DNA of 35,961 nucleotides. Origin: Oscillospiraceae bacterium. GTDB taxonomy: Bacteria > Bacillota > Clostridia > Oscillospirales > Oscillospiraceae. The notes under the pieces are model-generated. The model was not told the DNA's origin. It saw nothing but the letters and a program-made list of their open reading frames with translations, and searched no databases. The position numbers and the translations under genes are program-made. The stretch lies in the NCBI GenBank assembly GCA_017405865.1, contig JAFQZN010000019.1:1-35961 (forward strand), in the 5' to 3' direction. Below, piece after piece: positions 944-21,619 of this stretch. The stretch's first letter is position 1; every line of letters starts with the position of its first letter.

Positions 944-958
944 TTCCATTCACCCCCA

Positions 959-1858: not shown

Positions 1859-1866
1859 GGCGTCCC

Positions 1867-4800: not shown

Positions 4801-6540
4801 GCAGCCGTTCTTTAGTGAAATCAGCTTGGAGCACTCCTTCGGCGCCCCGTCAAAAGCGGTTACCAGAGAAACTCCGGTGTACTCCTCAGACGAAAGCAGT
4901 TCTTTGAGCATCTCCGTCGCATTGAAGAGTTCTTTGCTCAAAGCGAACACAACATAGGCCGGTTGCTTTTTCAGCTCGGTCTTCAAGTCTTTGGCTGCCT
5001 CGTCTTGTGTTAATAACCATCTGCCGTTAAGATACTTCGCAATCTGCTGCGTATCTTCTCCTGTCGAAGCGATAAAGCGGACGTTTCGTTCATTGTCCCA
5101 AAAATGCGGCAAATACTTAGCAAAATCAAAGGTATCAAGGTCCTCCTTGTCAGCAAGCAGGACCATCTTCAACTCATCAAATGCATGCGTAACCGCAAGA
5201 TAAGCAATCATGTTCCGGACCAATGCCATGGCATACTGATGCTTGCCGATAATTCCGCTGATATAGTCATCCCGCAGCGAAATCATGATCGGAACATTGT
5301 TCAGCATCGTCGGGGCTTCCGCAACCTTGTACATCTCGTCCATCAAGGGGTCGGGCTCCATCTCGAACTTCTTTGGCTGGTACTCCAGCTTTGCCACCAT
5401 CGGACGGCTGCCGCTGCCAAGTCGAACCAGTAAAAAATCGTCGTCAATTTTTCTGCGTTCCCACAGGCGAGTTTTTGTCGTTGTAAAAGCAAGCGTTTGA
5501 TTCAGTGTAGGATATATCTCATTGAGCTGACGTACCTCCTCCGCAATTTCCTTCGCGATCTCCTGTCGCTTTATTTGCAAATACTCTGTATACCTCGCAG
5601 TACGCTTCGCCTCGTATTCCTTTCGGTCTTTCTCCGTCAGGCCCTGCGTCAGCGCAGGAAAAACCAACGAGGTGAGCGCGGACAGGTAGTTGCCGGTAAA
5701 GATTGCCCGGCCGCCCATAACGGCAGGACTGCCCAAACGCAGCGCCAGCGGGATCTTGTTTGCAGTCATCGGAGGAGGCGGCATGTCGATCTCGATCGTA
5801 TCCTCGTTCAGCGTGTATTTTTTTCTTGGCTTCCGATCAAAAAACTGCGGTGGCTGCGGTGACTGCGGCGCAGCAAACATCACGTCGCGCCCTGACTGGA
5901 TCGCATGGATTTTCGGCGACGTCATGAGAATTCGGTTGTCCGCGTTGTTCATCGCAATAAAGCCGGTCCCCATGATGATATATATGCCCATAATATAGAT
6001 CATGTCGCCGAGCGACAGATCACAGCGTCGAACGCTTTTCCCATTGACAAACACACCGTTTTTACTGTCGTTATCAATAATGGTCCAGCGATTCCCTGAC
6101 CAGCGCAGTGTTGCATGCCATCTCGACAAATAGGTGTTTGCATAGCAAATATCGCAGTCCTGCGCGCGACCAATGATTATGTCGGAATGCCGCTCAATGT
6201 AATAGGGGATAAACACGTTCCCCTGCCCGCGATCCGCTTCGGCATAAAGCGTGTAATTTTTGCCTTCGACAACCGCTTTGGCAAGCGATTGGTCCGTTAA
6301 CAGCAGTTTTTTTGCCGGTGCGCCGTCGCGGGACAGAAAATAGCCTTTACGATTCACAACCGCATACCATTCGTTCTTTTCCGCCAGGATGGATATATCA
6401 TCTTCCAATCCATCAAAGGTAAATCTTCCTTCCTTTACTGCTGGCAGCCAAAGATCGTACATGCAGTTGCCGGTCTCCAGCAGAACGATACGCATCGGGA
6501 AGCTTTTCTGTTGTGTCTGATTGAATTCTTCCTGATCCAT
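1867..6540 (-). CDS. essC: EssC-type T7SS motor ATPase (FHA + FtsK/SpoIIIE domains)
   Basis: This is the membrane ATPase that drives T7SS export. Numbering from an upstream TTG at 6561 (1564 residues), the parts are: an N-terminal region with an FHA domain (about 112-200; IIIGR, SRWH, NGKSV); a short hydrophobic stretch with a basic helix (about 285-345) at the usual membrane position; ATPase 1 (Walker A GMTGSGKS near 696, Walker B VLIDYKGGG near 725, SDEFAEL near 817); ATPase 2 (GTSGSGKS near 1042, VVMDN near 1142); and a degenerate ATPase 3 without a P-loop (VLVRGSSASVFEK near 1348). I prefer the ATG at 6540 (1557 aa) because AAGGA precedes it; the TTG has no ribosome site. Length and order match EssC. 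The FHA domain suggests gating by phospho-threonine partners encoded in the same operon. Confidence 0.93.
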   Translation of the reverse strand: MDQEEFNQTQQKSFPMRIVLLETGNCMYDLWLPAVKEGRFTFDGLEDDISILAEKNEWYAVVNRKGYFLSRDGAPAKKLLLTDQSLAKAVVEGKNYTLYAEADRGQGNVFIPYYIERHSDIIIGRAQDCDICYANTYLSRWHATLRWSGNRWTIIDNDSKNGVFVNGKSVRRCDLSLGDMIYIMGIYIIMGTGFIAMNNADNRILMTSPKIHAIQSGRDVMFAAPQSPQPPQFFDRKPRKKYTLNEDTIEIDMPPPPMTANKIPLALRLGSPAVMGGRAIFTGNYLSALTSLVFPALTQGLTEKDRKEYEAKRTARYTEYLQIKRQEIAKEIAEEVRQLNEIYPTLNQTLAFTTTKTRLWERRKIDDDFLLVRLGSGSRPMVAKLEYQPKKFEMEPDPLMDEMYKVAEAPTMLNNVPIMISLRDDYISGIIGKHQYAMALVRNMIAYLAVTHAFDELKMVLLADKEDLDTFDFAKYLPHFWDNERNVRFIASTGEDTQQIAKYLNGRWLLTQDEAAKDLKTELKKQPAYVVFALSKELFNATEMLKELLSSEEYTGVSLVTAFDGAPKECSKLISLKNGCSYIDLVNPEVEDQPFEMDPSDPGNMQQSMQLIMQTKLRMEAQQYALPNMISFLEMYKAGRVEHLNPIARWAANNPVKSLAAPLGVGTDGKLFYLDLHEKRQGPHGLVAGMTGSGKSEFIITYILSMAVNFSPDEVAFVLIDYKGGGLADAFVDPARDIHLPHVVATITNLDGASINRSLVSIRSELKRRQAVFKKAKSETNEGTMDIYDYQKLYRNKRVKEPMPHLFIISDEFAELKKQQPEFMDELISTARIGRSLGVHLILATQKPGGVVNDQIWSNTKFRACLRVQDKSDSMEMLKRPEAAELKNTGRFYLQVGYNELFALGQSAWCGAGYTPQDEVITEKDESVRFIDSVGQTLLEAKPKKDTSKKAECKQIVAVVQYLSDLAKREGIIPRSLWKEPLPKTLEFDTLKQQVDLAVLSPLEAVVGLVDDLERQEQFPVTVDFLSLRHMWICGTSGSGKSHQIRTILYSLMERTTPEDFSYYVLDLSGGALRPMADTPWCGAYLTENNDADFGRLLEMIQNIVAMRKKLFTEAGVTNYKSYLEVGKLPFILVVMDNYSAIQNFRNGADLYATFGNRLKEAAGYGVCFLLSSNHINEVHSRTRQEIDFRLALQAKDRYEYTDILGVRCTQDETTAPGRGFCLVNGEPLEYQTAIPDAPLGDSERAQALRERLARLAERLPPNLTAQRLPMASQEQTYEEFCASFGSGRIPLGYSVKDMRQIALPLKQTYCVPIWFGNKNGVLPVWSNVLYAAAREHMRLVLVRGSSASVFEKPETVPVLMNYPEEKIILESTEEGLRKLSDILQKETLRRNEVRDAFCERNGILATAKNRAIRAEKEIRAACGNLLILFERFGDIVTLPQSEIADGIRKGVLQTMFERAKGYSMFFFAGFYPEDEGINSPMIKSLVMSKTVMFFGGQLGRQCLFGTLPMEYRRREKQDPNYDRYLLLYRTEFFDMRMPCGPLVTAEEDPDDTAIVT

Positions 6541-6603
6541 CAAGCATGATTTCCTTTCCAAAATGACGGGATGTGTTCCGGTGTGGACGCATTCGTTCCT
6601 TCG

Positions 6604-6642: not shown

Positions 6643-9600
6643 TTACTCTACGACAACCTTCTTGCGCCGCTTAAGTTTGAGCAACGCGCCTGCGCCAGCA
6701 AGCAGCGCCACGCCGCCGATGCTGCCAAAGAACAGCGGCTTGTTCGCAAACCAGCGGACGAACAAATTCGTAGATACCGTCACGTCGCGTTCCAACGCAT
6801 ACGGAACTGCAAAGTCAGCCGTGTCGGAGGACGTAACGTTGCCTGCCTTGTCAGTCAGGATGAAGCAAACGTGCTGCGCACTGCTCTTTTCACTGATTGT
6901 GAAGTTGCCGGAGTATTTGCTGGCATCCTCAAACTCTGTGATTTCAACGACAGCCGCACCATCGACCAACACCTTCACGGAAGCAAGACCGCCGGTATCA
7001 AAGACGTCATAGTTGACTGTCAGCTCGGTAGTATTGACAATCTTTTCTTCCAGACCGGCAACGCTCTGGAGCTGCGGCGCTGTGCTGTCAACAATGAACA
7101 AGATGTCGCCGTCAGAGTTTGCTTCTCCGTTCTCGACTGCCTCTCCGCCGGAATCATCCGTGGTAGTGATCGAGATGGTATAAATACCGTCGGCAGCATA
7201 ATTGTCCTTGTTGATCGTAACCAAATAGGTATACCAGCTTTCGCCGTCTGTCGCAACCTCGCTTACGGCGTAGTCGGCTTCAACGGGTACACCGTCGCGC
7301 GTGATAAGTACGACGACGTTGTCCTCATCGATGGGGCTGGCGTTGTAGATCGTGAAGGTCAGATCCTCGTCGATTTTCTGGTTGAACGTTCCGCCGTCCT
7401 CAATCAGCGCGAGCAATTCATCGCTGTATTCGTATACGGAACCGAAACGGTTCATGGTGAAGCGGACGCTTTGCTCATCATAGTTGTCGGATAGGTCCGT
7501 GCTGCGTACGGTGAGGGTGTAAATGCCGTCGAGTTCTACCTTTTTCTCGAAGATATCGAGCAGCGCAGTTGCGGTATTGCCGCTGCGCTCGATGAGCTTC
7601 TCAACCTTGTCGCTCAGATCGATCGTGCCGCCCTTCTGAACGCCGACCAACGTGACCTTATACCCCTCGAGATTGGTGTCCGTGATCGTAAACGACGGAA
7701 TTAGCTCGTCATCATAGATGTACGCCTTGCCGTTCTCAACGCTTTCGGGATCAATGGTAATCATTTTGGTCTTCGTATCGATCGTGAAGCTCTGCGGCGC
7801 GGCAGAACCGCCGTAATCGACGGGGCTGTTGGAGTTCTCTGCAATATCCTTCATGGAGATGTCGAAGGTGTAGTCGCCGTCCGTGGTGTAAGCAACCATA
7901 GCGGTATGGGTGTCGCCGCTGGTCGACCAGCCCGTGAAGGACGCGCCGCCTGCAAGTGACAAGGTGACCTTGCTTTCGTTGAAGTTGTGCTCCACGATGG
8001 TAATGGTCGCCTGACGGTTTGCCTTGAAATACTTGTTGTTCGTTCCGCCGCCGAAGTAATGCTCGTCCGTCAGTTCGTTATTGTCGTAACGGACGCTGAT
8101 CGTCGGCGCGGTCGTATCGATCGTAATGCGTTCCGAGGCATATGATTCCATCTTGTTGTTGCTGCGGTCGGTGTACTCTGCCGTGACGGTATAGTGACCG
8201 TCGCCGCCGCCGTTTGCCAGCGCAGAGATCGTGATTTTCGCAACGTAATTATCGTTTGCGGCGTCATCATAATTCCAAGTTACACTTGCCTGAGAAGGCG
8301 CTGCATTTCCGTCGCCGGTTTCGCGATTGACTGCGATCTTTACATCCTCTTCATAGAAATTCGCCTCATTGAAAATCAGTGTCAAAATCGCATCTCCATT
8401 ATAGTAATGGTCCGAGCCAACCACGGCGCTTTCGCCTCCGTATTCTTCAGTGACGGTAGGCGCCTTGCTGTCAATGACTATGACCGTGCCCTCATCTGTC
8501 ATGGCGTCGCTTGTGTTCTTCTTATTGTCCGTTGCGGTCACATAGATGTTTCCGCGGAACTGATCTGCCACGTCCTGCGGGAGGATCATTGATGCTGTGA
8601 ACAGGGACTTGTCTTCTTCTGCCGCAACCGCCTCATAGTCGAGGATCAACTTCTCTACGTTGATAGTGCTGGCGTCAAGTTCCATCTGATAGCCGAAGTG
8701 GAAGGTACTGATACCGGAGGTAACGTCATTGCCGGTCACCGTGATAACCACGAGAGGCTTCTTATCCGTCTGACCGTCGTTATAGTAATTGTAGTGCTCA
8801 TATTCAGGCGGGAGCTCAGACGGGTCTATGCCCGTCGGCAGGATCGGATCAGAATAAGAAATCGTGAAGGTTTCAGCATCCGGTTTCGTGCGGTCGATCG
8901 TAAAATCGATGGTCTTTTGGTCCGTATTCTTCTGCTTCTCAGCATTCTTATCTTCTGCAAGATCGGAATAGCTGAGCTTCATAGAGTACACGGCATCTTT
9001 AAGTTCCTTATTGAGAACAAGCACGTGAACGTCAGGAGCGTTCTGATCGTCCTGCCAAGAAGTCGGATTTGTCAGCGCGGCAATAACGTCTTTTCTCAGG
9101 GCGTCAATGTCGGAAACATCATTGCCGTTAATGTCCTTTGCTGTCAGGTCGAGCACGATGTCGCCCGCGTTGAAGTTGTGTTCGGTGATCGTGATCGTTA
9201 CCGTCTGCGTGGGCAGGTCTTCCTGTCTGCTTTCCTGAAGCACGATTTCCGGAGGCGTGGTATCGATCACCTTAATACGGGATTCTGTATAATCTTCCTG
9301 AATATTCGTCGAGATGTCTGCACCTGCGATATAGATAACGTAGTCGCCGTCGTTGCTGTGATCCGCATCTGCAGGCAGCGTGAACGTACCTTCGAGAGTA
9401 AGCATCTGGTCATCAACGCCTCTCCATTCACACTCAACCTCCATCGGCTGCTCGTCGTTCTCGTCCTTGACGTAATAGACGCGGTACAGGGATGGGTCGA
9501 AATTGACCTCTTCCAGCGTGATCGTCACGTCGATTGGGCCATTATAATAATCCTTATCGCTCGCTATTCTATTGGCAGCGCTGTAATCCACCCCTGCTAT

Positions 9601-12600
9601 CAAAGGATCCGTGCTGTCGAGTACGAAGAAGCTTAACTTCTCGTCGTCTTCATTCTCCGCATTCTCGCTACGAACGGCAGTCGTTTCGTCATTGCCGTTC
9701 ATAGAGCGGTCGACTGCGTAGAACTCCACGTGTCCGTTCTTGTATTCCTTTTCCCTCACGCCCAGTGACACCGTCGCGGCAAAGCTGCCGTCCTCTTGCT
9801 TTACTACGTCGTCTGCTCGCGCCCATTCAGTGGTCGGTGCGTTGAGCTCGCTGACGCCTTCTCTGCGGACATAACGCCACACAAAATACTCCACGCCAGC
9901 AGTCTCATCCTTCGCCACAAGCTTCACGTCTGCAGTTTCTTGATAGTAGTAATCGGCTTCAATTACCGTGCTGTCTTTATCTGCAGGATCCTCTTTGATC
10001 TCTCTGATGACGACAGGGTCAAGGTAAGCCAGCATTAACCCGCTCGGTGCCTTGGTATCAAGCACCTTGACGTTAGAGTTGATAGTATGATCTGGATCGG
10101 TCAGAGTCTCGCCCGATCTGTCCTTCATCGTGATGCTGAACACATACTCTCCATCCGCCGTATGATTGTTCTCTGCCTGAATCGTAAAGCGGCCGATATG
10201 CTTGCCGTCATCTACCTTCCAGTTAACGGCCAACTTCTGCGGGTCGCCTCCGTCTTTTGTGAAGGTTGCTACAACATCGTCTTCATAGAAGTTTGTTTCT
10301 TCGATCTCGATCGTGCCTTCGATATTACCGTTATAGTAGTCCTTACCGCCCAGTTGCTGTACCGCCTCATTGTAACGAACGCCATTGAGCAGCGGGTCGG
10401 TCGTATCAAGAATGAGCACACAGGTTGTTTCGGAGAGATACTCGCAGGGCTCTTCGGGATACTCTTCCTGCGTGAAATCCTTTGCATACATGCCGTTGCC
10501 GGACAAATCATTGTAGGAAACGCTCACCGTATAAACGCCGTCTGCCGTATGATCCTCCATGTCAGCGGGAATGATAAACGTTCCGGCCCAATTGGTGCTC
10601 GTATTGTCCGCATCCGTGTTCTTCCATTCGATTTCCGGGGCTTGCTCCAGCAGATCGCCATCCTTCTTAACGACAACCGTCAAGTCATCAGGCACAAAGT
10701 CGATTTTTTTGACCACCAACGTGACCTCAATATCAGTAACGAAATACTCAATCGGTAACTCGCCTTCAGGTTTCTTTTCGGCAACAGCTTTTTGATAGTT
10801 TACATCCAACAGCAGGGGCTCACTGTCGAGCATGAAACTGCGGCTCTCATCTCTGCACGCAGTAGAAGCATCGTTGCCATTGTCGGCAAAGTCGACGGAA
10901 TAGAACTCGATCCGTCCGAGCATCTGGCCATAGACGTTCTTTTCCAGCTCTACTATCGCGGCGAAGCTGCCATCCTCTTGCTTTTCTGCGTCTTCTCGCG
11001 CCCATTCAGTAGTCGGAGCATTGCTCGTGCTTGCATCATCCGTTTGGACGTAGCGCCACATGAAGTATTCCACGCCGGCAAGCGAATCCTTTGCACTGAG
11101 CTGAACTTTCGCAGTTTCATTGTAAATGTAGACCGTTTCTTCTTCTGCGATTTCACGGGTATTAACCCAATCGACATAGGCAAGTTGCAGTTCCTCAGGC
11201 GCCAGCGTGTCGAGCACCAAGATGCCGGAGGTATCCGTAAGCTTCACGTTCTCCTTAGTCGGGTCCTGATAGACGACCGTTACGGTGTACTCACTGTCTG
11301 CCGTATGCTCCTCGGTATCTGCCGTGATAATAAACTTTCCAACGTGCTTCCCGTCGACTTCTACCCAGTTGACGGTCAGCTTCTGCTGCGCGCCGTCGCT
11401 TCCGGTGCAGGTGGCCGTCACATAAGACGCAAAGAAATTCGTTTCATCAATCGTGATCTCGCCGCGGATGCTGCTATTGTAGTAGCTCTTTGCATTTGCT
11501 TCCTGGAACGGAGCCAAGTAGCTGACAGAGAGTGCCGGATCGGTCGTATCAATAACCTTTTTGTAGGAAGTGTAGGCAATCTCTTCGTTCCCGGAGCGGT
11601 CCCTGTAGCGGATTGAGATCACATAGGCGCCGTCTCCGCTGTGATCGGTCGGCGCGCCGATCGTAAAGGTGCCGACATAGACCATACCTTCTGCGGTGTC
11701 GGTGCCGACGTCCCAGGTCATCTCCAGGGAACCGGTCAGGCCGTTTTTGTTGTACTCTGCTGCGAAATCGTCCGGTATAAAGTTGTTCTCGCAAATCGTA
11801 ACGGTACCAACGATGGCTTCGTTGTAGTAGGCAGTCGTTCCGTCCGTCCAATGCGGCTCGTTAAAGCTGATTTCACCGTTCAGAAGCTCTGGATCCAACG
11901 TATCAATTACGAATCCGGCTTCACCGGTGCAAGCATTTTCCTCGGAACCGTTACCGGCAATGTCGACGGCATAGAACTCAACATGACCGCGCATCTGACC
12001 GTAGATCTCCTCTGTCAGCGCAATCGTCGCGCTGTACGTTCCGGTCTTTTCGTCATATTCTGCAGGAACCGGATTGCTCCAATCGGTCGCTTCCGAATTC
12101 ACGCCGCTCACTCCGTCTTCACGGACATAGCGCCATACGAAGCAGTCGACGCCGGAGTGTTCATCCTTCGCGCGCAGTTCTACCTGCGCTTCACTCTGGT
12201 AAAAATTCAGCGTGAGAACAGTCAGCAGGCCGTCCTGCGGAAGCGGATCAAGATATATGACTTCAAGATCCGTCGGCAAAACCGTATCCAGCTTGACGTT
12301 AACATTCTCGATCGGCGCAAGGATTTCGCCCTTATCATTGCGCAGATAAACGTCTATCGTCAGATTGCCGTTCTCTTCCAGCAGTACGTTGTTTGCGAAG
12401 TCGCTGCCCTCTTTGTTGATCTTCGTCGCAGCCTCATAGCCGGGTGCGGGGATAAGATAGAGGTTATTGTTATACCAGCCTGCCTTGTTCGGCTCTGCCG
12501 GTTGACTTCCATCCTCATCCGCGTAGAGCGCATAGACGGCGGCTTCATCGGGCAGAGCATAGCCAATTATGAGCGTATAGTTTGTGCTTGCTGCTGCGTA

Positions 12601-14133
12601 TTTGGCGTACCTTTCCCCCGTCTTTGCAGTCGTCCCTTCTACTGCTGCTTTGGCAGCCTGCACGACAAAGCTGAGCTCCGCGCTGCCACGCAGCGCATCA
12701 TTCAGCTTGCTGTAATCGGCAATCGTGATTTTGCCGTTGGAAGCGTCAATTTCCAGGCCGCACGCGGCTGCGTTCTGTGCATCTTCAAATGCATAGGTGA
12801 CCGTGCCGGTGTCCTTTTCATATGCAGTCTTCGCCTGCTGTGCTGAAGCTACGCCGTTTGCTGCGCCAAAGATATAATTGACGTCGTCCATCGGTTTGAG
12901 TAAATTCTGAGTCGCAACGACGTTAAGATAGAAGCATATCTCAGCAGTTGCGTGGTTGTCGTCACCGGAAAGGGCGGCGATTATCTTCATGCTGCCTGCT
13001 GACTTGACTGTCAGCAGGCCATTTCCGCTGATGCTCGCGATTGCGTCGCCATCATCAGCAATCGGCCCGCCGATTTCGTTTTCAAGGCGATAGGTGAGGA
13101 AGAACGTCTCGCTTTCTGTCCATGCGCTGAAATCTAAGGGCTCGGTGATCTCACCCAGCTCGAGCGTCAGTTCGCCCTTATCCTCATATTCAATATTGTT
13201 GAACCCAGGAGGCGTCTGCTGTTTTTTGCCGATAACGGCATCGACCGGCGCCAACTCGAGCGGCTCGTAGTTTTCCTTCTTGGCTGTAACGAGAACACGG
13301 TATTCACCCGCGTTGGTTCTTGTCAGATCCTCTGGATTATGGTAGACCGTTTCCTCTCCTTCCAACCTGATCTCATACTGATAATCAGCCGCGTCGGCGC
13401 CTGTGATCGTAATAAGCTGCTGCGGCTCTCCGGTATATTCCGTGTTGACGCCCTGCACCTTTACATCGGCGCCTTCAATCTGAGCGGGTGAGATCACAGA
13501 GTCCACCGTCGCCGAAAAATCTTCATAATTGGCGCGTTCGACCTTAACCGTGACAGAATAGGTCGCGGCTTTGCTGATGGTCGGCATATTACTGCCTTCT
13601 TCGTTCAGCACGGTTTCCTTGCCGTCAACGGTAATCGTAATCGTATCGCCTTCCTGCGTTCCGCTGACGGTCACAGCAGGATATCCTGCGCCGTCGCTAT
13701 AGGTTTCCGCTGTTGGCGTTACGGTGATTCCGGGAACAACGCTGCGATGCAGTGTCACAATAAAATTGTCCTGATAGGACGTGACCTGTTCGTTCAGCGC
13801 ATCATCCGTTTCGTGGAAGTCGCAGCTCACGTTCGCACGGAGGGAATAGCTTGTCTCGCCAAATTCCTCTGCGCTCAGAATCTCCACGATGCCGTCGCTG
13901 CCGGTAATCATCACATTGCTGATCGCGGCTCCAGTAGCATCGTCCGTCAGAGTGTAAGCGACGGTCGCCCCCTCAAGCGCGCCATCACCGTCCACGACCG
14001 TGATCGTCACAGCATCCGGATGTCCTGTCGTTTCCGCACTGATCTGCGGAATCGGCAGAACGCCCAGCACCATGACACAGACCATCGCCAACGCAAGCAG
14101 TCTGTGGAAGATACTTTTTCTCGCGTTTCTCAT
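6643..14133 (-). CDS. Giant Ig-repeat surface protein anchored by a C-terminal membrane segment
   Basis: The 2496-residue protein starts with a signal peptide (basic MRNARKS, hydrophobic core to about residue 30). Its first third contains MBG/Ig-like beta domains. From about residue 620 come Ig-like modules of 110-145 residues, most joined by a D-(T/S)-x-x-P landmark (near 745, 861, 974, 1240, 1360, 1505, 1622, 1745, 1888, 2005, 2350). It ends in a glycine-rich hydrophobic helix and a basic KLKRRKK tail; no LPXTG is present, so it is membrane-held, not sortase-linked. AAGGAG precedes the ATG. It lies inside the T7SS operon before essC, so it probably spans or crosses the cell wall as part of the machine or as an adhesin exported by Sec. 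EsaA is a topological analogue, but I see no sequence resemblance. Confidence 0.88.
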   Translation of the reverse strand: MRNARKSIFHRLLALAMVCVMVLGVLPIPQISAETTGHPDAVTITVVDGDGALEGATVAYTLTDDATGAAISNVMITGSDGIVEILSAEEFGETSYSLRANVSCDFHETDDALNEQVTSYQDNFIVTLHRSVVPGITVTPTAETYSDGAGYPAVTVSGTQEGDTITITVDGKETVLNEEGSNMPTISKAATYSVTVKVERANYEDFSATVDSVISPAQIEGADVKVQGVNTEYTGEPQQLITITGADAADYQYEIRLEGEETVYHNPEDLTRTNAGEYRVLVTAKKENYEPLELAPVDAVIGKKQQTPPGFNNIEYEDKGELTLELGEITEPLDFSAWTESETFFLTYRLENEIGGPIADDGDAIASISGNGLLTVKSAGSMKIIAALSGDDNHATAEICFYLNVVATQNLLKPMDDVNYIFGAANGVASAQQAKTAYEKDTGTVTYAFEDAQNAAACGLEIDASNGKITIADYSKLNDALRGSAELSFVVQAAKAAVEGTTAKTGERYAKYAAASTNYTLIIGYALPDEAAVYALYADEDGSQPAEPNKAGWYNNNLYLIPAPGYEAATKINKEGSDFANNVLLEENGNLTIDVYLRNDKGEILAPIENVNVKLDTVLPTDLEVIYLDPLPQDGLLTVLTLNFYQSEAQVELRAKDEHSGVDCFVWRYVREDGVSGVNSEATDWSNPVPAEYDEKTGTYSATIALTEEIYGQMRGHVEFYAVDIAGNGSEENACTGEAGFVIDTLDPELLNGEISFNEPHWTDGTTAYYNEAIVGTVTICENNFIPDDFAAEYNKNGLTGSLEMTWDVGTDTAEGMVYVGTFTIGAPTDHSGDGAYVISIRYRDRSGNEEIAYTSYKKVIDTTDPALSVSYLAPFQEANAKSYYNSSIRGEITIDETNFFASYVTATCTGSDGAQQKLTVNWVEVDGKHVGKFIITADTEEHTADSEYTVTVVYQDPTKENVKLTDTSGILVLDTLAPEELQLAYVDWVNTREIAEEETVYIYNETAKVQLSAKDSLAGVEYFMWRYVQTDDASTSNAPTTEWAREDAEKQEDGSFAAIVELEKNVYGQMLGRIEFYSVDFADNGNDASTACRDESRSFMLDSEPLLLDVNYQKAVAEKKPEGELPIEYFVTDIEVTLVVKKIDFVPDDLTVVVKKDGDLLEQAPEIEWKNTDADNTSTNWAGTFIIPADMEDHTADGVYTVSVSYNDLSGNGMYAKDFTQEEYPEEPCEYLSETTCVLILDTTDPLLNGVRYNEAVQQLGGKDYYNGNIEGTIEIEETNFYEDDVVATFTKDGGDPQKLAVNWKVDDGKHIGRFTIQAENNHTADGEYVFSITMKDRSGETLTDPDHTINSNVKVLDTKAPSGLMLAYLDPVVIREIKEDPADKDSTVIEADYYYQETADVKLVAKDETAGVEYFVWRYVRREGVSELNAPTTEWARADDVVKQEDGSFAATVSLGVREKEYKNGHVEFYAVDRSMNGNDETTAVRSENAENEDDEKLSFFVLDSTDPLIAGVDYSAANRIASDKDYYNGPIDVTITLEEVNFDPSLYRVYYVKDENDEQPMEVECEWRGVDDQMLTLEGTFTLPADADHSNDGDYVIYIAGADISTNIQEDYTESRIKVIDTTPPEIVLQESRQEDLPTQTVTITITEHNFNAGDIVLDLTAKDINGNDVSDIDALRKDVIAALTNPTSWQDDQNAPDVHVLVLNKELKDAVYSMKLSYSDLAEDKNAEKQKNTDQKTIDFTIDRTKPDAETFTISYSDPILPTGIDPSELPPEYEHYNYYNDGQTDKKPLVVITVTGNDVTSGISTFHFGYQMELDASTINVEKLILDYEAVAAEEDKSLFTASMILPQDVADQFRGNIYVTATDNKKNTSDAMTDEGTVIVIDSKAPTVTEEYGGESAVVGSDHYYNGDAILTLIFNEANFYEEDVKIAVNRETGDGNAAPSQASVTWNYDDAANDNYVAKITISALANGGGDGHYTVTAEYTDRSNNKMESYASERITIDTTAPTISVRYDNNELTDEHYFGGGTNNKYFKANRQATITIVEHNFNESKVTLSLAGGASFTGWSTSGDTHTAMVAYTTDGDYTFDISMKDIAENSNSPVDYGGSAAPQSFTIDTKTKMITIDPESVENGKAYIYDDELIPSFTITDTNLEGYKVTLVGVQKGGTIDLSDKVEKLIERSGNTATALLDIFEKKVELDGIYTLTVRSTDLSDNYDEQSVRFTMNRFGSVYEYSDELLALIEDGGTFNQKIDEDLTFTIYNASPIDEDNVVVLITRDGVPVEADYAVSEVATDGESWYTYLVTINKDNYAADGIYTISITTTDDSGGEAVENGEANSDGDILFIVDSTAPQLQSVAGLEEKIVNTTELTVNYDVFDTGGLASVKVLVDGAAVVEITEFEDASKYSGNFTISEKSSAQHVCFILTDKAGNVTSSDTADFAVPYALERDVTVSTNLFVRWFANKPLFFGSIGGVALLAGAGALLKLKRRKKVVVE

Positions 14134-14601: not shown

Positions 14602-15138
14602 TCAAATCACCTCTTGCGTGTGGATCAAGAACACCTCATCCAACTTGGTCATCTCAACGCGCGGACGACTTTCCGCGACTTTCGCAACGGTTTGCGGCAG
14701 AATTTCGGTCGCATATTCGGTATCCAGTTCTTCCGTTGCTGCCGACAATTCTGCCTGCCGCTCTGCGGCGGGGTCCAAGAATGCCGTAACATTCTGTTCT
14801 TCGCGCCGTGCGCTCGCTTGAGAGTGTCCGTTCGGCGCATTGCCGCGGAGAATGGGTGCATTCTTCGACAGCGGAGTTGTCTGCTCCGACCCCCTTGCTT
14901 CTACCGGTTCCGTGATCTTTCCGCGTTCCCGGTTTACTTGATCTGTTTGGAAGGATGCATTCTTTGCTCCAGCGCCTCCCACAGTCATCTGACGAATCGA
15001 CTTCTTGGCCGAACGATTGGTGAAATAGTCCAGCACCTTGGGAATTTTCAAAGCGAAGAACAAAACGATTGCGGTCAAAAGGAAGACCCCTGCGAGGATA
15101 TAAGCTATAACGGAAAGTGTAGATAAGGTATCAGCCAT
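14602..15138 (-). CDS. Single-pass membrane protein with a disordered cytoplasmic tail
   Basis: The 178-residue protein has one N-terminal membrane helix (about residues 8-32, VIAYILAGVFLLTAIVLFFAL) followed by a basic stretch (TNRSAKKSIR) and a long polar, probably disordered tail. The charge pattern predicts that the tail lies in the cytoplasm. The tail holds several Thr/Ser sites (EQTTPLSK, TEELDTEYATEIL) that the neighbouring kinase might modify. The gene overlaps the kinase stop by 8 bp and the next gene by a few bases, so translation is coupled. I do not recognise a family. It may be a kinase substrate or a small membrane subunit; EssA is comparable in having few membrane helices, but there is no visible sequence match. 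Confidence 0.75.
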   Translation of the reverse strand: MADTLSTLSVIAYILAGVFLLTAIVLFFALKIPKVLDYFTNRSAKKSIRQMTVGGAGAKNASFQTDQVNRERGKITEPVEARGSEQTTPLSKNAPILRGNAPNGHSQASARREEQNVTAFLDPAAERQAELSAATEELDTEYATEILPQTVAKVAESRPRVEMTKLDEVFLIHTQEVI

Positions 15139-16846
15139 TGTCGCTCCCGCTCCTTTCCTGTGTTGTAAAAGCGGTTTCGATCATTTCTCTGTCATTTTCA
15201 TAGTTCTCTCGCATTCTGTTTTGCAGCGCCTTCGCCTGCTCCTTGTTTGGCGACAGCGCCATTGCGCGCTGATAAACGTTGTCAAAAAGCGACAAGACCT
15301 GCGTCTGACTTATGCCCTGCTGCGCCATGTTCTTCCGTTCCATATACAGGGTGTTGAATACCACGCTGTACAACGACAGCTTATTATACGGGCCTTCTTC
15401 TTGAATGCTTCCGATGCGACTGTTGATCTCTTTGAAAAGCATCTCGTAATCGCCCTTATCTGCCTCGTCATTGTTCAATCGTCCGGTATTTGAGCTCAGC
15501 AAAAAGTTGTTGTAGAAATAGCACACCCAGTAGAAACAGTCAGAAATCGTCTTGTGTTCGTAATCGGCAGTACTGTTGTAGTTTTCCTCAAAGTAATGAT
15601 ATGCCTGTTTTGCTCTTGCTCCATCGCTTTCGCTGCCATCGGCTTCTGTATAGTAATTAAAATACATTGTGCCGATCTTATATCGGAGTTCGCACATTTC
15701 TGCGCTGTCCGAATCAAATCGATCGCTGTATTTGTTATAGAGGGACAGAAATTCGCCGCTCTCCGTAGCGCTGAACTTTCCATTGTCAGCGTAGGCATCC
15801 AGAAGGCGGGTATATCCGCGCAAGTCCTCCGGGTAGATGTTGATCGCCTGTTTGTATCCTTCCACCTTTGTTGCATAAGGGGTGGAATCCGCCACGCCGA
15901 TCAGCGTTTCGTAGTTATTGCTATTGATGCGGTCAGACGCATTTTTCATCACTATACCGCCGATCAGCATCACTATGCTCAATGCCAATACGCAGAGAAA
16001 TGCGCCCAACTTTCGCTTTTCTTTCTTGCGGTAGTCGCGCGTTAGCTTGCTGGGGTCGTACAAATCGCGCAGCAGCTCGTCGCAGTTCTGATAGCGATTT
16101 TCCGGAGCCGGCTGGACGCATTTGTCGACAATGATCTCAATACCTTCTGAAAGCTCGGGGTTCCAGTTGCGAACGGACGCATACTGTCCTCCCTTTCTGG
16201 GATCTATTCCGGTCAGCAGATGGTGCATCGTCATGCCCAGGCTGAAAATGTCGGATCGGACGTCCGTATGGCCCGCATAGTGTTCCGGAGAAGCATAGCC
16301 GCGTGTGCCAAGCACCGTGGTATCTGCCAGATTTTTGTCTTTGAATTCTCTGGCAATGCCAAAGTCTATAATTTTAATGATGCCGTATTCACCCTCCGGC
16401 TTCAGCATCAGGTTTGCAGGCTTCATATCGCGATAGATAATCGGGTGCGGTTTTTGCGAATGCAGGTAATTTAAGGCGTCGCATATCTGCATCGCCCAGC
16501 GGATCACATTCTCTTCCGACTGTGCGCCATGCTCTTCAATAATCTTGTCCAACGATTCGCCTTCGATGTAGTCCATGACAATGTAGATTGTCTGACCGTT
16601 GTCGATGATGTCGACGATTCGAGGGAAGGCAGGGTGATCCAGCCGCTTAATCAGATTTGCCTCGGCCATTAAGCTGTTTACGACGATTTCATCGTTTTTC
16701 GATACGCCCTTCTTTCTGACCTCTTTGACTGCCCACTGCTTGTTAAGGCGCTTATCCATCGCCAAATACACGACGGACATGCCGCCGCGTCCAATTTCAG
16801 TCAGGATTTCGTATTTCCCGTCAATTACGCTTCCGATTTGTGTCAT
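15131..16846 (-). CDS. Membrane Ser/Thr protein kinase (PknB-like) with an extracytoplasmic helical-repeat domain
   Basis: Residues 1-265 form an intact Hanks-type kinase: glycine loop GRGGMSVV (19-26), catalytic Lys41, YRDMKPAN (Asp140, Asn145), DFG (161-163), TTVLGTRGYASPEH activation segment, DIFSLG. A basic juxtamembrane stretch leads into a membrane helix near 281-300, then about 270 residues of helical, TPR-like sequence outside. The usual PASTA repeats are absent. GAGGTGA lies 6 bases upstream of the ATG. The kinase sits 11 bp after the PP2C gene and overlaps the next gene, so kinase and phosphatase are co-expressed. Likely targets are the TSLL motifs of the FHA protein and the membrane tail proteins of this operon. 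Kinase-TM-ectodomain order is also the layout of EssB, whose kinase fold is inactive. Confidence 0.92.
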   Translation of the reverse strand: MTQIGSVIDGKYEILTEIGRGGMSVVYLAMDKRLNKQWAVKEVRKKGVSKNDEIVVNSLMAEANLIKRLDHPAFPRIVDIIDNGQTIYIVMDYIEGESLDKIIEEHGAQSEENVIRWAMQICDALNYLHSQKPHPIIYRDMKPANLMLKPEGEYGIIKIIDFGIAREFKDKNLADTTVLGTRGYASPEHYAGHTDVRSDIFSLGMTMHHLLTGIDPRKGGQYASVRNWNPELSEGIEIIVDKCVQPAPENRYQNCDELLRDLYDPSKLTRDYRKKEKRKLGAFLCVLALSIVMLIGGIVMKNASDRINSNNYETLIGVADSTPYATKVEGYKQAINIYPEDLRGYTRLLDAYADNGKFSATESGEFLSLYNKYSDRFDSDSAEMCELRYKIGTMYFNYYTEADGSESDGARAKQAYHYFEENYNSTADYEHKTISDCFYWVCYFYNNFLLSSNTGRLNNDEADKGDYEMLFKEINSRIGSIQEEGPYNKLSLYSVVFNTLYMERKNMAQQGISQTQVLSLFDNVYQRAMALSPNKEQAKALQNRMRENYENDREMIETAFTTQERSGSDNG

Positions 16847-16857
16847 ATGCAGTCACC

Positions 16858-17619
16858 TCATTCCGCCTTTATGAGAAGAACGGAAATGTTATCTCTCTCT
16901 TTTCGTGCTTTTACCAAGTCAATAAGGTATCTACAGTTGCTATGCATCGTTTCTCTGCTGCTCAATCTGCTGAGATTGAGAGACTCGTACATTTCTTTGG
17001 CAGATATCTCGTGACGGAATCCATCAGAGCATAACATGTACGTTCCGGTTTCCGTCTTCCCATAATACACGGCGGGATTCATGTCAGGAGATGCTCCGAC
17101 ACACTGCAGCAGCATATTTCGCTTCGGGTCCACTTTTGCCTGTTCCGGCGTCATCGCCCCGCGCTTTATCTCGCGCTGTACATAGGTCTGATCCTCGGTA
17201 AGTTGGATCACATTGCCGTTGATGTAATATGCGCGGCTGTCGCCAACATGGACGATAAAGTATTCGGTCCTGAAGAACAGCATTCCGGTAAACGTCGTGC
17301 CAAGATTCGCGCCGATCGTTCTTCCATAAGACATAATCTTTATATTGAGTTCCTTTAACAGGAGCACCCATTTGCTGGCAATAACCTGCATGTTCGGTTT
17401 GGCCAGCTCCAACGGCAGCATCTTATCAAACCATTCCTTGAAAGCGCGAAGTACTGTTGCGCTCGCCAATTCTCCCTTAGAAAGACCGCCCATACCGTCA
17501 CATACTATGGCCATCAGCACCTCGCCGGTCGATGTGCTCGCATGTTCGATCAGGACGCTGTCCTGATTGGTGCTCTTTACGTTGCCGATATCTGAATCCG
17601 CTGTTGCAAGAAATCGCAC
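16858..17619 (-). CDS. PP2C-family Ser/Thr phosphatase
   Basis: The 253-residue product carries the metal-binding motifs of bacterial PP2C (PrpC/Stp) enzymes: STNQDSV (Asp20), VCDGMGG (Asp41, Gly42), HVGDSRAYY, LCSDGFRH and RDNISVLLI. It has no membrane segment, so it should act in the cytoplasm and remove phosphates placed by the kinase encoded next. Start is GTG at 17619 with AAAGGGG 9 bases upstream. Position between the FHA protein and the kinase makes a three-gene phospho-signalling module at the head of the T7SS operon. Confidence 0.93.
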   Translation of the reverse strand: MRFLATADSDIGNVKSTNQDSVLIEHASTSTGEVLMAIVCDGMGGLSKGELASATVLRAFKEWFDKMLPLELAKPNMQVIASKWVLLLKELNIKIMSYGRTIGANLGTTFTGMLFFRTEYFIVHVGDSRAYYINGNVIQLTEDQTYVQREIKRGAMTPEQAKVDPKRNMLLQCVGASPDMNPAVYYGKTETGTYMLCSDGFRHEISAKEMYESLNLSRLSSRETMHSNCRYLIDLVKARKERDNISVLLIKAE

Positions 17620-17650: not shown

Positions 17651-19159
17651 TTATCGCTCGTTGCAAAACTCAAACTCTTCATTTGCCAACTGCAACAGAT
17701 CCCCATTGACGATCTGCACTTCATCCTCGGGAATCAGCATTCGCCCGTTGCAATACGTTTTATTGGTGGAATTGCGGTCGCAGATATAGTATCTTCCATT
17801 CCTGCAAATAATGTCCGCATGGCTGCGGCTGATTGCATGATTGTTGGACACAAAATAATCCACATAGCTGCGTTCTTTCCCGATGCGAAATACTGGTTTG
17901 TCAACCGGGATTCTCTCACCGTTTGATCTGCGGATCAAATACGGGTACTTCTGCGCTCTGTTTTCCTGCAAAAGCCCGGTTGCCTCGTCGTCCTGCCAGA
18001 TTTGTGCAGATCGGGCGTCGACATCTCTCTTTCCAAAGGAACTCTGCATAGAGATGTCCGTCTGTCCGTACATACCGCGTGTGTCCAGCCCGAGCAGCGA
18101 GGTGTCGTCTTCCTGCACGGCTTGATCGTTCTCGTGCATCAACTCGTTATAGCTGTTTTTCACTGAACTCTGCCAAGCGCATCCCTGCATTGGTCGTACA
18201 TCCTCGGATTGCCGAGGTATGAAAGCAGAATTTGCGCCGGAAATGAACTGGTTTGGCGGCATTGCGATGTCCCGCTGCATGTGGCGTCCGGAGCCTCCTT
18301 CGCTCAAAAGCGACGTTTGCGGTTCATCGTCTAAGCTCGCCCTCCCCCGGTTTTCGCTGCGATAGTTTCCAGTCAGGGAAAGCAGAGAGGTTTCGTCTTC
18401 CCGTGATACGGCCGAATTCTCCTGCGCAAGCAGTGACGTTTCATCGTCCCGTGCCCAGCCGTGCGCGTTTTGCCCCCGCAGTAATGACGTGGCGTCTGGC
18501 TCGCTGCCGCGAGGGCTGAGTGCTTTCTTTTCATAGTGTTTATAATAATCAGCGCGCTTGTTCGTAATGAATCCGCTATTGGTGACATAACCTCTCTGAA
18601 GCATTTGAGCAACAGCAGCGTCCTCATGTTTGATATACCCGAGAATCCGATCCGGATCATAAGCTTTTAGGTGATAGAGGAATGCCGAAAAACGCGAAAC
18701 ATATTGCATGTCGCCACCAGTCATAATGTTCCAACTGTTTGCAATCTGCTCCATCAACTCGAACACCGTACTGTTTGATTGTTCTTTTGTCAGTGGGAGG
18801 AAGATGAACTGTAATTCCCTCGTGCTGGGATTGATGAAAACATACTGGAGTTCGAGCACAAGTTGCTTTTCCGTTGCGTAGTTTTCTGCAATTCTCCGTT
18901 CAGTCAGTATGATCTGTGCGATGATATAAAAAAAATCATACGATGAACGCGGTTGCCTCATAAATTCCAGCAGAGATACCGCTCTTGGTCCTATATACTG
19001 GATGAGATTTTTCCGAAGAACCGTCGCTTTCAGCAATCCGCGAGGGGTTTTGCCGGTCACAAGGGATAAGATTCGCTCTGCAAGGAACTCGCCCCTCCCC
19101 AACTTTACCCGGATCTCAATTCGTGGATCTTTTGAATTCTTAATCTTAAACTTCGGCAT
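17651..19159 (-). CDS. DUF6382-like/FHA protein with repeated TSLL motifs
   Basis: This first gene of the T7SS operon encodes 502 residues. The N-terminal ~170 residues resemble the DUF6382 domain that precedes FHA domains in Clostridia (family assigned from memory, moderate certainty). The middle (about 205-400) is disordered and holds six acidic-Thr-Ser/Gly-Leu-Leu motifs at Thr224, 241, 257, 282, 353 and 394. The C-terminal FHA domain (about 408-500) has FRIGKE, NNHAISRSH and NSTNKTYCNG, the residues that bind phospho-threonine. AAAGGAT lies 7 bases before the ATG. It probably acts as the scaffold read by its own FHA domain and the EssC FHA domain when phosphorylated. It lies about 70 bp from the recombination site upstream, so its transcription is the likely target of the switch. 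Confidence 0.88.
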   Translation of the reverse strand: MPKFKIKNSKDPRIEIRVKLGRGEFLAERILSLVTGKTPRGLLKATVLRKNLIQYIGPRAVSLLEFMRQPRSSYDFFYIIAQIILTERRIAENYATEKQLVLELQYVFINPSTRELQFIFLPLTKEQSNSTVFELMEQIANSWNIMTGGDMQYVSRFSAFLYHLKAYDPDRILGYIKHEDAAVAQMLQRGYVTNSGFITNKRADYYKHYEKKALSPRGSEPDATSLLRGQNAHGWARDDETSLLAQENSAVSREDETSLLSLTGNYRSENRGRASLDDEPQTSLLSEGGSGRHMQRDIAMPPNQFISGANSAFIPRQSEDVRPMQGCAWQSSVKNSYNELMHENDQAVQEDDTSLLGLDTRGMYGQTDISMQSSFGKRDVDARSAQIWQDDEATGLLQENRAQKYPYLIRRSNGERIPVDKPVFRIGKERSYVDYFVSNNHAISRSHADIICRNGRYYICDRNSTNKTYCNGRMLIPEDEVQIVNGDLLQLANEEFEFCNER

Positions 19160-19229: not shown

Positions 19230-19256
19230 TTTCGCAGAACTCTTAATTCTGCGAAA
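19230..19256 (+). repeat. Recombination site A (27 bp, beside the T7SS operon)
   Basis: Arms TTTCGCAGAA and TTCTGCGAAA are perfect inverted repeats around the asymmetric centre CTCTTAA. The layout (10-bp arms, 7-bp spacer) is that of a tyrosine-recombinase core site. The same 27 bp occur in reverse orientation at 20600-20626, on the other side of the recombinase gene. It lies about 70 bp upstream of the first T7SS gene. It could also act as a hairpin in the transcript reading from the recombinase gene into the operon. Confidence 0.75.
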
Positions 19257-19273
19257 TTACTATCTTGCTTTTG

Positions 19274-20389
19274 CTAATTGTTGCATTTTGCTTGTTCTTG
19301 ACAAGAAAGTTGACCAAAAACACGCTCCATTCGTTCCATCGCTTCGAGCTTAATTCTATCAGACGAGTGTACGTAGATATCCATAGTGATTTGAATGCTG
19401 GTATGCCCAAGCAGTTCGCTTAACGATTTTACATCGCAGCCACATTCGATCCAACGTGTTGCAAAGGTATGCCGCAGCGCATGAAATTTGATCTGCTGCA
19501 GACCTTGCTTACGCAACAAAGCTCTGAAATGACACTGCAATGTCCGCGGGTTAAAAAACGAGTCGTTTTTGGGAGAAGGAAATACAAAGGCAGATGAAGC
19601 CCGCATTCTTTCACGCTGCAATAACAAAAGTAATGCATCTGTAATCGGAATCGTTCGCAAAGAAGCTTTGCTTTTTGGCGTACCAATTCCAAATTTTCCT
19701 TGCCGTTCGCGAACAGCAGTCGTACGGACATAAATCTGACGTTCAACGAAGTCAACATTTCCCCACTCGAGCGTGCAGATTTCCCCGAGCCGCATTCCTG
19801 TATGTAGCGCAAGATATACCGCAAGATTTGCTCCGTGAGGTTCCTGCAGCAACAGCGCTTCCAGCCTTTGCTGTTCGTGTGCCTTCAATAGGCATACAGG
19901 TGACCGAATAGCCTTTGGTTTTTTGACTGGAATCATTGCAGCCATACCCATGCCGTTACGATAGGCATAGGCTAATACAGCCTGCAATACTACGCCAATG
20001 ATACGAAGCATGCTGCGTGAAAGTCCACATTGCTGCTTTTCTTTCAGATAAAAATCGACGGTTATCGGCGTGATCGCAGAGCATCTTGTGCCTGAGAAAT
20101 ATGGCAATATGTGCTTCTCCAGTATTTGTCGGTATTTTTGAATCGTTTGTATCTTGACTTCCGTCGCTTTCTCATCCAGCCATTGAGCGGCGACATCAGA
20201 AAAAAGGATGTCTTTTCTGCGTGAATTTGTCTGACGCAAAGCATCTCTCCGTTTTTCCTTTACCTCAGCATAACTGGCTGCATACACAGAACGGTATTGG
20301 CTCTTTCCTGTATTGTCTTTACCAGTACAAAACCGTGCTTCCCAGCGGCCATCCTTTCGATGATAGATGCTTTCTCCTCTTCGTCCCAT
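19274..20389 (-). CDS. Tyrosine recombinase (Tn916-type integrase family)
   Basis: The 371-residue protein has an N-terminal arm-binding domain of the Tn916 Int type (MGRRGESIYHRKDGRWEARF), a core-binding domain (about 60-155), and a complete catalytic domain: Arg200 (HTGMRLGE), Lys near 239-241, His303-xx-Arg306 (HALRHTFAT), His329 (LLGH) and nucleophile Tyr339 (MDIYVH). The ATG at 20389 has GGAGG 8 bases upstream; a GTG at 20425 would add 12 residues but lacks a site. No excisionase or other mobility genes accompany it. Identical inverted 27-bp sites flank it, so it is more likely an inversion enzyme than a phage integrase. As it stands it is transcribed toward the T7SS operon with no clear terminator between, so read-through is possible. 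Confidence 0.9.
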   Translation of the reverse strand: MGRRGESIYHRKDGRWEARFCTGKDNTGKSQYRSVYAASYAEVKEKRRDALRQTNSRRKDILFSDVAAQWLDEKATEVKIQTIQKYRQILEKHILPYFSGTRCSAITPITVDFYLKEKQQCGLSRSMLRIIGVVLQAVLAYAYRNGMGMAAMIPVKKPKAIRSPVCLLKAHEQQRLEALLLQEPHGANLAVYLALHTGMRLGEICTLEWGNVDFVERQIYVRTTAVRERQGKFGIGTPKSKASLRTIPITDALLLLLQRERMRASSAFVFPSPKNDSFFNPRTLQCHFRALLRKQGLQQIKFHALRHTFATRWIECGCDVKSLSELLGHTSIQITMDIYVHSSDRIKLEAMERMERVFGQLSCQEQAKCNN

Positions 20390-20525
20390 ATTACAATCCT
20401 CCATTTTGACAAAGTATTTGACCACATATTTTGATGATATTGACAGAATTGACCGTTTGTAATATTGCTTCGTCTCAAAAAAAAGTGGAAATTTGCTGCA
20501 TTTTGTAAATAATTGATAGTTATAA
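20390..20525 (+). repeat. TTGAC direct repeats upstream of the recombinase
   Basis: This AT-rich stretch holds TTGAC at 20406, 20418, 20440 and 20449, and TTGAT at 20431, all on the plus strand. A further TTGAC at 20526 is the -35 box of the outward promoter. The spacing of 9-13 bp resembles the arm-type direct repeats bound by the N-terminal domain of Tn916-like integrases. They could equally serve as operators for autoregulation. Otherwise I see no gene here. Confidence 0.4.
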
Positions 20526-20554
20526 TTGACTTTTTCAGTTAGGTTGCATATAAT
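20526..20554 (+). promoter_or_regulatory. Near-consensus promoter inside the invertible segment
   Basis: TTGACT (20526-20531) and TATAAT (20549-20554) are separated by exactly 17 bases, giving a predicted start near 20561. In the present orientation it fires rightward through site B toward the back of a transposase remnant and a terminator. If the segment inverted, it would lie near 19302-19330 facing the FHA gene, with a leader of about 135 bases. Confidence 0.7.
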
Positions 20555-20599
20555 AAAGTTGTACTTTGTGTATTAGCGCGTTTTTTGCTTAGTTTTTTC

Positions 20600-20626
20600 T
20601 TTCGCAGAATTAAGAGTTCTGCGAAA
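20600..20626 (-). repeat. Recombination site B (27 bp, inverted copy of site A)
   Basis: These 27 bp are the exact reverse complement of site A, including the asymmetric centre (TTAAGAG here). Here the palindrome extends further, to about 16 bp arms (20594-20632), by matching T-rich and A-rich flanks. The inverted relation between sites A and B predicts inversion of the intervening ~1.37 kb rather than its excision. Confidence 0.75.
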
Positions 20627-20764: not shown

Positions 20765-21619
20765 TTAATCGATGCGCCCTGCTGCTATTGAATAGCGGCA
20801 GGGCACCTTTTTTGAATAAATCTTGTAATTTAAGTGGTAATTCGTGGCAATTGTAAAGCAAGACAGAATCTTCCGATTCAGAAGACTCTCTCTTGTTTTT
20901 GTGTTCGGGTCGGGAGTAACGAACCGCCATTTGGCTGCGAACTCCCGACGCCAACAGTTTTTGGTTTTGAGAAATGGTATGCTTGCTTCTTCGATGCTTT
21001 CTCCTGTTGGTCGCCCGCGATTGACACATCTTGCAATCACATGATAATCTCTGTCCGTTGCGACGCAAACACAGAGCTGCTCACGGGAAATGCCACGAAG
21101 ACTGACGCCTTCGCCGTGGCTTCTCGACTCTCTGTGCGTTACCATACGGCTTTTTTGAGATTCAGGAACATAGGTTTCGTCCGCTTCAACAAGCATATCC
21201 AGAGCTTCAGCGCCGTTCAGGGCCTGTTCCATAAAGACCAGCAGCTTGCGGCGCATGTAGAAAGCTGTAGAACGGCAGACGCCGACGACCCTCGCAGTTT
21301 CCTCCAGGGAATCCAGCCGGAGCGTGGATTCCAAGGCTACGATCCAAGCCTCCAGCGGCTGATGCGAGTGAGAAGTGATTTGGAGCGTGTCGTAGGTGAA
21401 CTTCTTCTGGCAGCACTTACACTGGAAGCGCTGCTTGCCCCTGGAGAACCCCTTCTTGATAAGGGTAAAACCGTTTGCGCCGCAATGCGGGCAGACCTCA
21501 GGCCGCACGTTCTCAAGCTCGCGGTTGAGAAAAAGATAATCCAGAACGATGCTCTGAATCCTGTCAACCTGATAGTTGGTAAGCTGGCTGATCGCTTTCT
21601 TTAACGCTGTCCGGGTCAT
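20765..21619 (-). pseudogene. IS1595-family transposase, 3' third lost
   Basis: The N-terminal part has a zinc ribbon (CPHCGAN, then CKCCQKKF), a helix-turn-helix region and the first catalytic aspartate motif (VEADETYVPES), followed by the family's RGISREQLCVCVATDRDYHV block. After about residue 208 (near plus position 20990) the expected second aspartate motif (TDG-type) and the third acidic site are absent, and the tail is not family-like. I therefore read it as a broken element. The start is ATG 21619 with AGGAGG 8 bases upstream; the TTG at 21625 is less likely. Terminal inverted repeats of the IS were not identified. Confidence 0.75.
20776..20813 (+). terminator. Rho-independent terminator facing the outward promoter
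   Basis: A GC-rich stem (GCCCTGCTGCT with AGCGGCAGGGC, one G-T pair) is followed by ACC and six T on the plus strand. It would end a transcript of about 250 bases started by the promoter at 20526. It overlaps the 3' end of the transposase remnant on the other strand. Confidence 0.7.

Follow-up and report, generated by a model that had tools for sequence, protein, structure and literature searches.

A contig of 35,961 nucleotides from an Oscillospiraceae bacterium, analyzed over its whole length and called the window here, very probably carries a self-contained phase-variation switch that inverts its promoter toward or away from a type VII secretion system (T7SS) operon. Two inverted sites, the enzyme encoded between them, a promoter-like site, a terminator-like site, and an operon encoding the ATPase EssC are present in the sequence. 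The features of the switch are as follows.

19230..19256, + strand: recombination site on the T7SS side (10-bp arm, 7-bp core CTCTTAA, 10-bp arm)
19274..20425, − strand: tyrosine recombinase, putatively 383 aa when read from its earliest start (PF00589, E 5.9e-30; PF14659, E 1.6e-11)
20526..20554, + strand: outward promoter by consensus match, TTGACT-17-TATAAT (11/12), with the −10 ending 45 bp from the site
20600..20626, − strand: recombination site on the far side, the exact inverse of the site at 19230–19256
20776..20804, + strand: strong terminator-like hairpin with a T-run in the fixed flank, from a terminator scan and RNA folding, predicted to end the outward transcript of the assembled state

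The site at 19230–19256 reads TTTCGCAGAACTCTTAATTCTGCGAAA, and its exact reverse complement lies at 20600–20626. An initial annotation of this DNA had described a pair of identical, inversely oriented 27-bp sites, each with 10-bp palindromic arms about an asymmetric 7-bp center; the letters bear out both the repeat and its layout, the arms forming a perfect palindrome. Including both sites, the segment measures 1397 bp, and the 1343 bp between them contain the integrase. The inverted-repeat score of the pair is 27, compared with scores of 15 or more in 2 of 1640 Markov-shuffled flank pairs (maximum 16). That annotation had also raised the prospect of a widespread 27-bp repeat. A pattern search of the source draft genome (2,082,433 bases in 83 contigs, 92% complete), allowing up to three mismatches and with the core either fixed or free, found these two copies and no third.

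The recombinase gene is the sole substantial gene between the two sites and, as assembled, reads toward the T7SS. The complete tyrosine recombinase proposed initially is confirmed by an open frame of 383 aa, the PF00589 match, and its conserved residues: R212, K251, H315, R318, H341, and Y351, which we take to be the catalytic residues, are invariant across 28 aligned recombinase sequences (an alignment that leaves out L089, L091, and L099). The N-terminal part is a SAM-like, phage-type domain (the PF14659 match), and the best matches among solved chains are integrases (Int protein 6emy) and XerA. This domain composition and these nearest solved relatives, together with the ability of the site sequences to fold well as RNA hairpins, would suit a standard phage or ICE integrase, with the hairpins close by serving as terminators or left over from attachment sites. 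We find such an origin hard to credit, given that the repeats are inverted instead of the direct repeats of attachment sites, that a terminator scan called no terminator at the site hairpins, and that no other mobile gene lies inside the segment. Two wider comparisons described below argue the same way: the gaps between recombinase and sites are conserved across 100 elements (5′ median 204, 3′ median 89), and a bracketing repeat is lacking in 51 of 57 viral homologues.

The top promoter-like site in the interval 18900–21000 is TTGACT-17-TATAAT, in agreement with the near-consensus promoter first noted within the segment. As assembled, it is directed away from the T7SS operon, which runs leftward from 19159. 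Inversion would move its −10 to 19302–19307 on the − strand, facing the T7SS about 140 bp upstream of the first gene, with an estimated leader of ~136 nt to the FHA start codon in which the site hairpin is included. Since the promoter faces the terminator and not the T7SS, the assembled window is predicted to be the OFF (or low) state for the T7SS. Beyond the far site lies an IS1595-like transposase ORF (20765–21625, − strand; 62.4 bits against a model cut-off of 75), opposed to the promoter. The scan called no promoter-like site between 19230 and the T7SS start at 19159. Inside the segment, a weaker promoter-like site (9/12; 19304–19277, − strand) is aimed at the T7SS; weak sites of this kind mean little, because five sites were called against 3.7 expected in shuffles. 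As assembled, some T7SS expression could proceed from this 9/12 site or by readthrough from the recombinase gene.

In the mechanism we propose, the segment-encoded recombinase would bind the two inverted 27-bp sites, and strand exchange within the shared core would invert the 1397-bp segment, with the recombinase gene carried along. The strong promoter beside the 5′ end of the recombinase gene, pointing out of the segment, would in the assembled state fire into the flank and its terminator, leaving the T7SS OFF or low; in the inverted state, the transcript would cross the 19230 site and the leader into the FHA gene and the rest of the T7SS operon, turning it ON. What we infer from this arrangement is that the segment inverts in cells at some rate and thereby changes expression of the T7SS. 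The cassette might alternatively invert and yet control the recombinase or a far-side gene instead of the T7SS, as could be imagined from the outward ORFs found within 700 bp on both sides of 31 of 100 elements. We judge this improbable for the window, where the far side holds the opposed transposase ORF and the terminator-like site, where no promoter-like site was called between the near site and the T7SS start, and where the arrangement is one of five, among 100 switches, that have a T7SS-type operon beside them.

The operon adjoining the near site has the following composition, read from the switch leftward.

17651..19159, − strand: FHA-domain protein, first gene of the T7SS operon (PF00498)
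16858..17619, − strand: PP2C-type phosphatase (family match)
15131..16846, − strand: Ser/Thr protein kinase (family match)
14602..15138, − strand: 178-aa protein with no family match
6643..14133, − strand: ORF for a large protein of 2496 aa, between kinase and EssC
1867..6561, − strand: EssC ATPase of the T7SS (TIGR03928, 900.3 bits; cut-off 778.4)
1607..1870, − strand: YukD-like small protein (PF08817, 25.9 bits, just under the cut-off of 27)
959..1285 and 575..949, − strand: two small ORFs downstream of EssC, with no WXG100 match

The distance of about 70 bp first given from the site to the first T7SS gene is accurate, the start codon lying at a distance of 71, and an SD-like AAAAGGA was read by eye ~7 nt upstream of the ATG of the FHA gene. 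The assignment of the adjacent operon to a T7SS likewise stands: EssC passes TIGR03928, placing the operon with the T7SSb systems by its EssC. The small ORFs at 959–1285 and 575–949 gave no WXG100 match. The window comprises the entire contig, which ends at base 1, so the last part of the operon may lie outside it. Across the genus, the FHA protein as query matched two other genomes, through the FHA domain only.

Within the genus (17 genomes, the source included), the best full-length integrase match outside the window was 33% identical; none of the 16 other genomes exceeded this value, so orientation comparisons come from more distant loci. Locus L015 (G001:C29, ~1500–1640) holds the N-terminal stretch only of a related integrase, 57% identical over 46 residues, followed by unrelated sequence; from this sequence, it appears to be a broken relative of the switch. 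Homologues were found in at least 37 genomes (source included) of a 400-genome family sample at 1e-45 or better and, by profile search at 1e-75, in at least 93 of 394 order-sample and at least 56 of 391 class-sample genomes. The order and class samples overlap, and all of these counts are lower bounds because at most four or five candidates were scored per genome.

An inverted repeat with a score of at least 15 brackets the integrase in 30 of the 40 family homologues fetched, the best 40 of at least 48 non-window matches, as compared with 2 of 1640 shuffled pairs. At a threshold of 16, based on the family shuffle null, bracketing inverted repeats occur in 63 of 80 order and class homologues (53 + 27, chosen mostly by score order with some skipped) and in 57 of the 70 whose flanks reach 350 bp or more on each side. 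Loci with no bracket at threshold number 10 of 40 in the family and 17 of 80 in the order and class; four in each group have less than 350 bp on one side, and the rest have full flanks. Eighteen further integrases, mostly from the genus, yielded no bracket scoring 16 or more (best, 15). As a viral control, a profile scan kept 80 loci, of which 57 were checked; a bracket was present in six, these being among the closest matches, and two of the 51 unbracketed homologues are identical contigs. A single-protein viral scan gave no match, the corresponding contig scan gave one distant locus without a bracket, and integrase matches in phage and plasmid records were all below 60% identity. On an 81-row tree, which leaves out L076, L089, L091, L099, L128, L161, and L169 and in which the 35 viral rows were chosen by hand, the bracket needs nine changes versus 25.9 for shuffled labels; the bracketed rows do not form one clade. 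By these comparisons, recombinase, sites, and outward promoter form a unit that is conserved well outside the source genome.

The anatomy of this unit was examined in 100 elements, comprising the window, 30 from the family, 63 from the order and class, and six viral, with near-copies included (L069, L285, and L286 are identical). Element length ranges from 1203 to 1864 bp, and the recombinase-to-site gaps have the conserved medians given above. An outward promoter matching at least 10 of 12 consensus positions is present in 79 of 100 elements versus 7.8% of shuffles, and one matching at least 11 in 50 versus 0.5%; an inward promoter of 10/12 or better occurs in eight, and 21 elements lack an outward one of that quality. 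The −10 ends 8 to 60 bp from the site in 63 of the 79. Outward ORFs of at least 100 aa lie within 700 bp on the side away from the promoter only in 42 elements, on the promoter-facing side only in 22, on both in 31, and on neither in 5.

Tyrosine recombinase strand exchange requires identical overlap regions, which are free to differ between elements. In 37 elements placed in a consensus register, the arms follow TTTCGCARAG-N7-CTYTGCGAAA more or less closely; none of 259 core positions differs within an element, compared with a mean of 2.24 of 20 arm positions, and 35 different cores occur. The arms of the Tad switches and of several T7SS switches are of the TTGCGTAGAAC type. In a palindrome register, which misplaces the cores of at least L067 and L335, 99 of 100 elements have identical cores, with 2 of 700 core positions differing versus 341 of 2000 arm positions, and 93 different cores are found among the 100. 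The best unbroken match serves as the anchor of the repeat finder, so core identity is partly built in, whereas core variety is not. Two related loci of one genome, L071 and L097 (G287), share the core TTGGCCC, so recombination between them is conceivable.

Inversion of the promoter alone through a third site near the integrase was considered and set aside, no separate third site being found across 31 elements. The extra repeat hit at L104 overlaps its known site, and L046 (the same locus as L075) has a second right-hand repeat copy that falls below the threshold of the third-site test. At L280, L284, L287, L289, L299, and others, the contig ends ~0.2 to 3 kb from the integrase, as if assemblies break there. 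The same 1411-bp switch with a 4-kb left flank, 100% identical, occurs in three genomes of two families (L069, L285, and L286); at L069, a gene for an rRNA adenine dimethylase (RrnaAD, E 1.9e-82) lies 353 bp away. Most of the right flank is also common to the three, in the same orientation, and the whole looks, on sequence, like a shared mobile region.

In integrase-centered frames, homologous flanks in several sets of loci sit to one side of the recombinase in one locus and to the other side in another, with the strand expected from inversion. The flanks of L071 and L097 match at 80.6% over 1172 bp, starting 89 and 87 bp from the site, and opposite-side matches also relate L083 to L104 and L101; L281 to L282, L283, and L290; L292 to L287, L289, and L293; L325 and L326 to L327; L349 to L350; and L305 to L314, both with T7SS-type operons. 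L072 and L077 form a weaker opposite-side pair (150 bp), and short matches of like kind join L113 to L356 and L315 to L082. Flanks lie on the same side in L067/L105/L309/L335, L070/L088/L098, L069/L285/L286, L300/L302, and the window with L305. The initial annotation had named an orientation fixed in all relatives as evidence against a switch; where related loci can be compared, homologous flanks instead stand on both sides. Since the loci or species differ, the opposite flanks speak of inversion over evolutionary time and not in culture. Comparison shows both a conserved layout and homologous flanks to either side of the recombinase.

These orientation comparisons span other loci and species and not the source species, which leaves room for a decayed or fixed switch, one that flipped once and is now locked as assembled in the window; the broken relative in G001 (46 matched residues, 57%) is an example of decay within the genus. 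We think this unlikely for the window copy, whose sites are identical over 27 bp, whose recombinase gene retains an open frame and the conserved residues, and whose promoter-like site is undamaged. A working switch is the reading we prefer.

Flanks of the 99 other elements, up to ~10 kb a side and often less, were searched with the proteins of the window operon. T7SS-type operons adjoin 5 of the 100 switches, namely the window, L305, L314, L316, and L318. At L318 (G679), 31 bp separate the site from the start of EssC. FHA, PP2C, and kinase genes adjoin the switch at L305 (G687) and L316 (G720), where EssC follows ~17 kb on in G687 and ~13 kb on in G720, on the same contig and strand across a stretch that was partly read. 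In all three genomes, EssC is downstream of the switch and passes TIGR03928. L314 (G748) has FHA, PP2C, and kinase genes and a large ORF with Ig domains on its promoter-facing side, 89 bp from the site, and its promoter matches at 12/12, an ON layout; the window, L305, L316, and L318 have the OFF layout. No EssC was found in the G748 genome at 1e-30, so L314 is counted as T7SS-like only; an open frame reaches nearly to the end of its contig. Large ORFs also lie 3′ of the kinase at L305, where the match to the 2496-aa protein is weak (E 1e-14), and at L314, with its Ig-type domains. The conserved unit in relatives, the flanks on both sides, and the ON-layout T7SS-like operon at L314 together support the interpretation as an invertible switch.

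On a 96-row tree that leaves out L089, L091, L099, and L128, the five T7SS-type recombinases fall in one 12-row group with Tad switches (SH-aLRT 85), the window recombinase sitting on a long branch of unsure place; the 81-row tree joins it with the Tad switches L067 and L105 (99/88). A single recombinase clade for the T7SS switches is not supported, the clustering falling short of significance: four changes are needed versus 4.9 for shuffled labels, with 29 of 500 shuffles as low. Nor do T7SS loci of the family generally bear a switch, none of 17 other EssC loci examined having one in the fetched sequence, coverage of which is partial because several stretches have short upstream parts. At least 17 EssC loci besides the window were found at 1e-150, with at most two candidates scored per genome. 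A profile search turned up integrase-like ORFs at two of the 17, next to a tRNA-rich stretch at L211 and at a contig edge in L221, and neither is bracketed.

The neighbors of other switches were surveyed with Pfam on 50 genes near 30 family elements. Among them are Tad pilus genes (TadZ at L067 and L105, a secretion ATPase at L067), chemotaxis genes (CheW and a chemoreceptor at L086 and L091), SLH proteins of S-layer type (L072, L085, L095), giant repeat or surface-type proteins (L070, L079, L080, L098), and capsule-type genes for sugar transferases, Wzz, or an ABC exporter (L078, L079, L097, L103). Other neighbors show no obvious link to the surface, including CstA (L082), AraC and Rrf2 regulators (L096, L099), Fic (L089), a thiolase (L074), and a helicase (L073), and several have no family match. 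By the tally of these 50 genes alone, a surface theme is frequent and not universal. One switch (L222 in NZ_AP023417.1, probably the same as L081) resides on a plasmid of Vescimonas fastidiosa, whose NCBI lineage is Oscillospiraceae; on the promoter side of L222 come a small hypothetical gene, a dockerin-repeat gene, and a cohesin-domain gene.

Among known systems, recombinases are described as occasionally lying within the invertible segment, with Hin as the example and a Hin segment of 966 bp (PMC5903667), and the fljBA promoter is placed in that segment (PMC9368917). The window resembles Salmonella Hin/fljBA in having recombinase and promoter inside a segment of about 1 kb between two flanking sites, with, as predicted for the window, an adjacent operon switched ON or OFF (PMC5903667, PMC9368917). 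It differs in using a tyrosine recombinase, other sites, and a T7SS in Clostridia, whereas Hin belongs to the serine recombinases and works on hix sites. By analogy, and with its promoter recognized by consensus only, the window switch would work like Hin without being a member of that system. The invertible segments of Clostridioides difficile RecV (cwpV, flgB) are given as 154 to 230 bp (PMC5903667); they share with the window a tyrosine recombinase, an invertible regulatory segment, surface targets, and the Clostridia, but are described there as lacking a recombinase, RecV acting from elsewhere on several switches, in contrast to the enzyme inside the window segment (PMC5903667). Features of fim/RecV-kind invertons are nonetheless present in the window, with a tyrosine recombinase of conserved residues and inverted, identical-core sites bracketing a promoter.

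Inverton group 139 is dominated by Clostridia (32/33) and linked to a tyrosine-type recombinase, invertase group 35 (PMC11892184), a link counted as intersecting or within 5 kb; the same study puts that recombinase type among nearby nonregulatable genes (PMC11892184). The window is alike in joining a Clostridia inverton to a tyrosine-type recombinase, but in the two examples printed there the repeats stand ~205 and 227 bp apart, which leaves no room for a recombinase, versus 1343 bp in the window (PMC11892184); their short spacer with the invertase outside is not the arrangement seen here. Phase variants of ESX-1 in Mycobacterium tuberculosis, as reported, likewise touch a T7SS and arise through homopolymer indels, in a tract upstream of espR and others, with no DNA inversion, unlike the window cassette (PMC11898584). 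We found no DNA-inversion switch of a T7SS in the open-access literature, where absence is not proof, and for invertible phase variation of Tad pili, that literature showed another mechanism only.

Taken together, these elements probably make up a family of self-inverting promoter cassettes spread through the Clostridia, which parallel Hin but use a tyrosine recombinase and have been placed repeatedly before envelope systems (T7SS, Tad pili, chemotaxis, capsule, S-layer, and giant surface proteins), with phase-variable T7SS as a recurring gut trait. Cores that are identical within elements and different between them (93 in 100) would insulate several switches in one cell. Elements of 1.2 to 1.9 kb may exceed the lengths sought by inversion surveys; their conserved layout lets such switches be located, and their state inferred, with little effort in ordinary genomes. 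If the segment flips, DNA inversion would turn type VII secretion on and off in single cells, and the family would lead to a testable prediction of the surface and secretion systems on which gut Clostridia place their bets.
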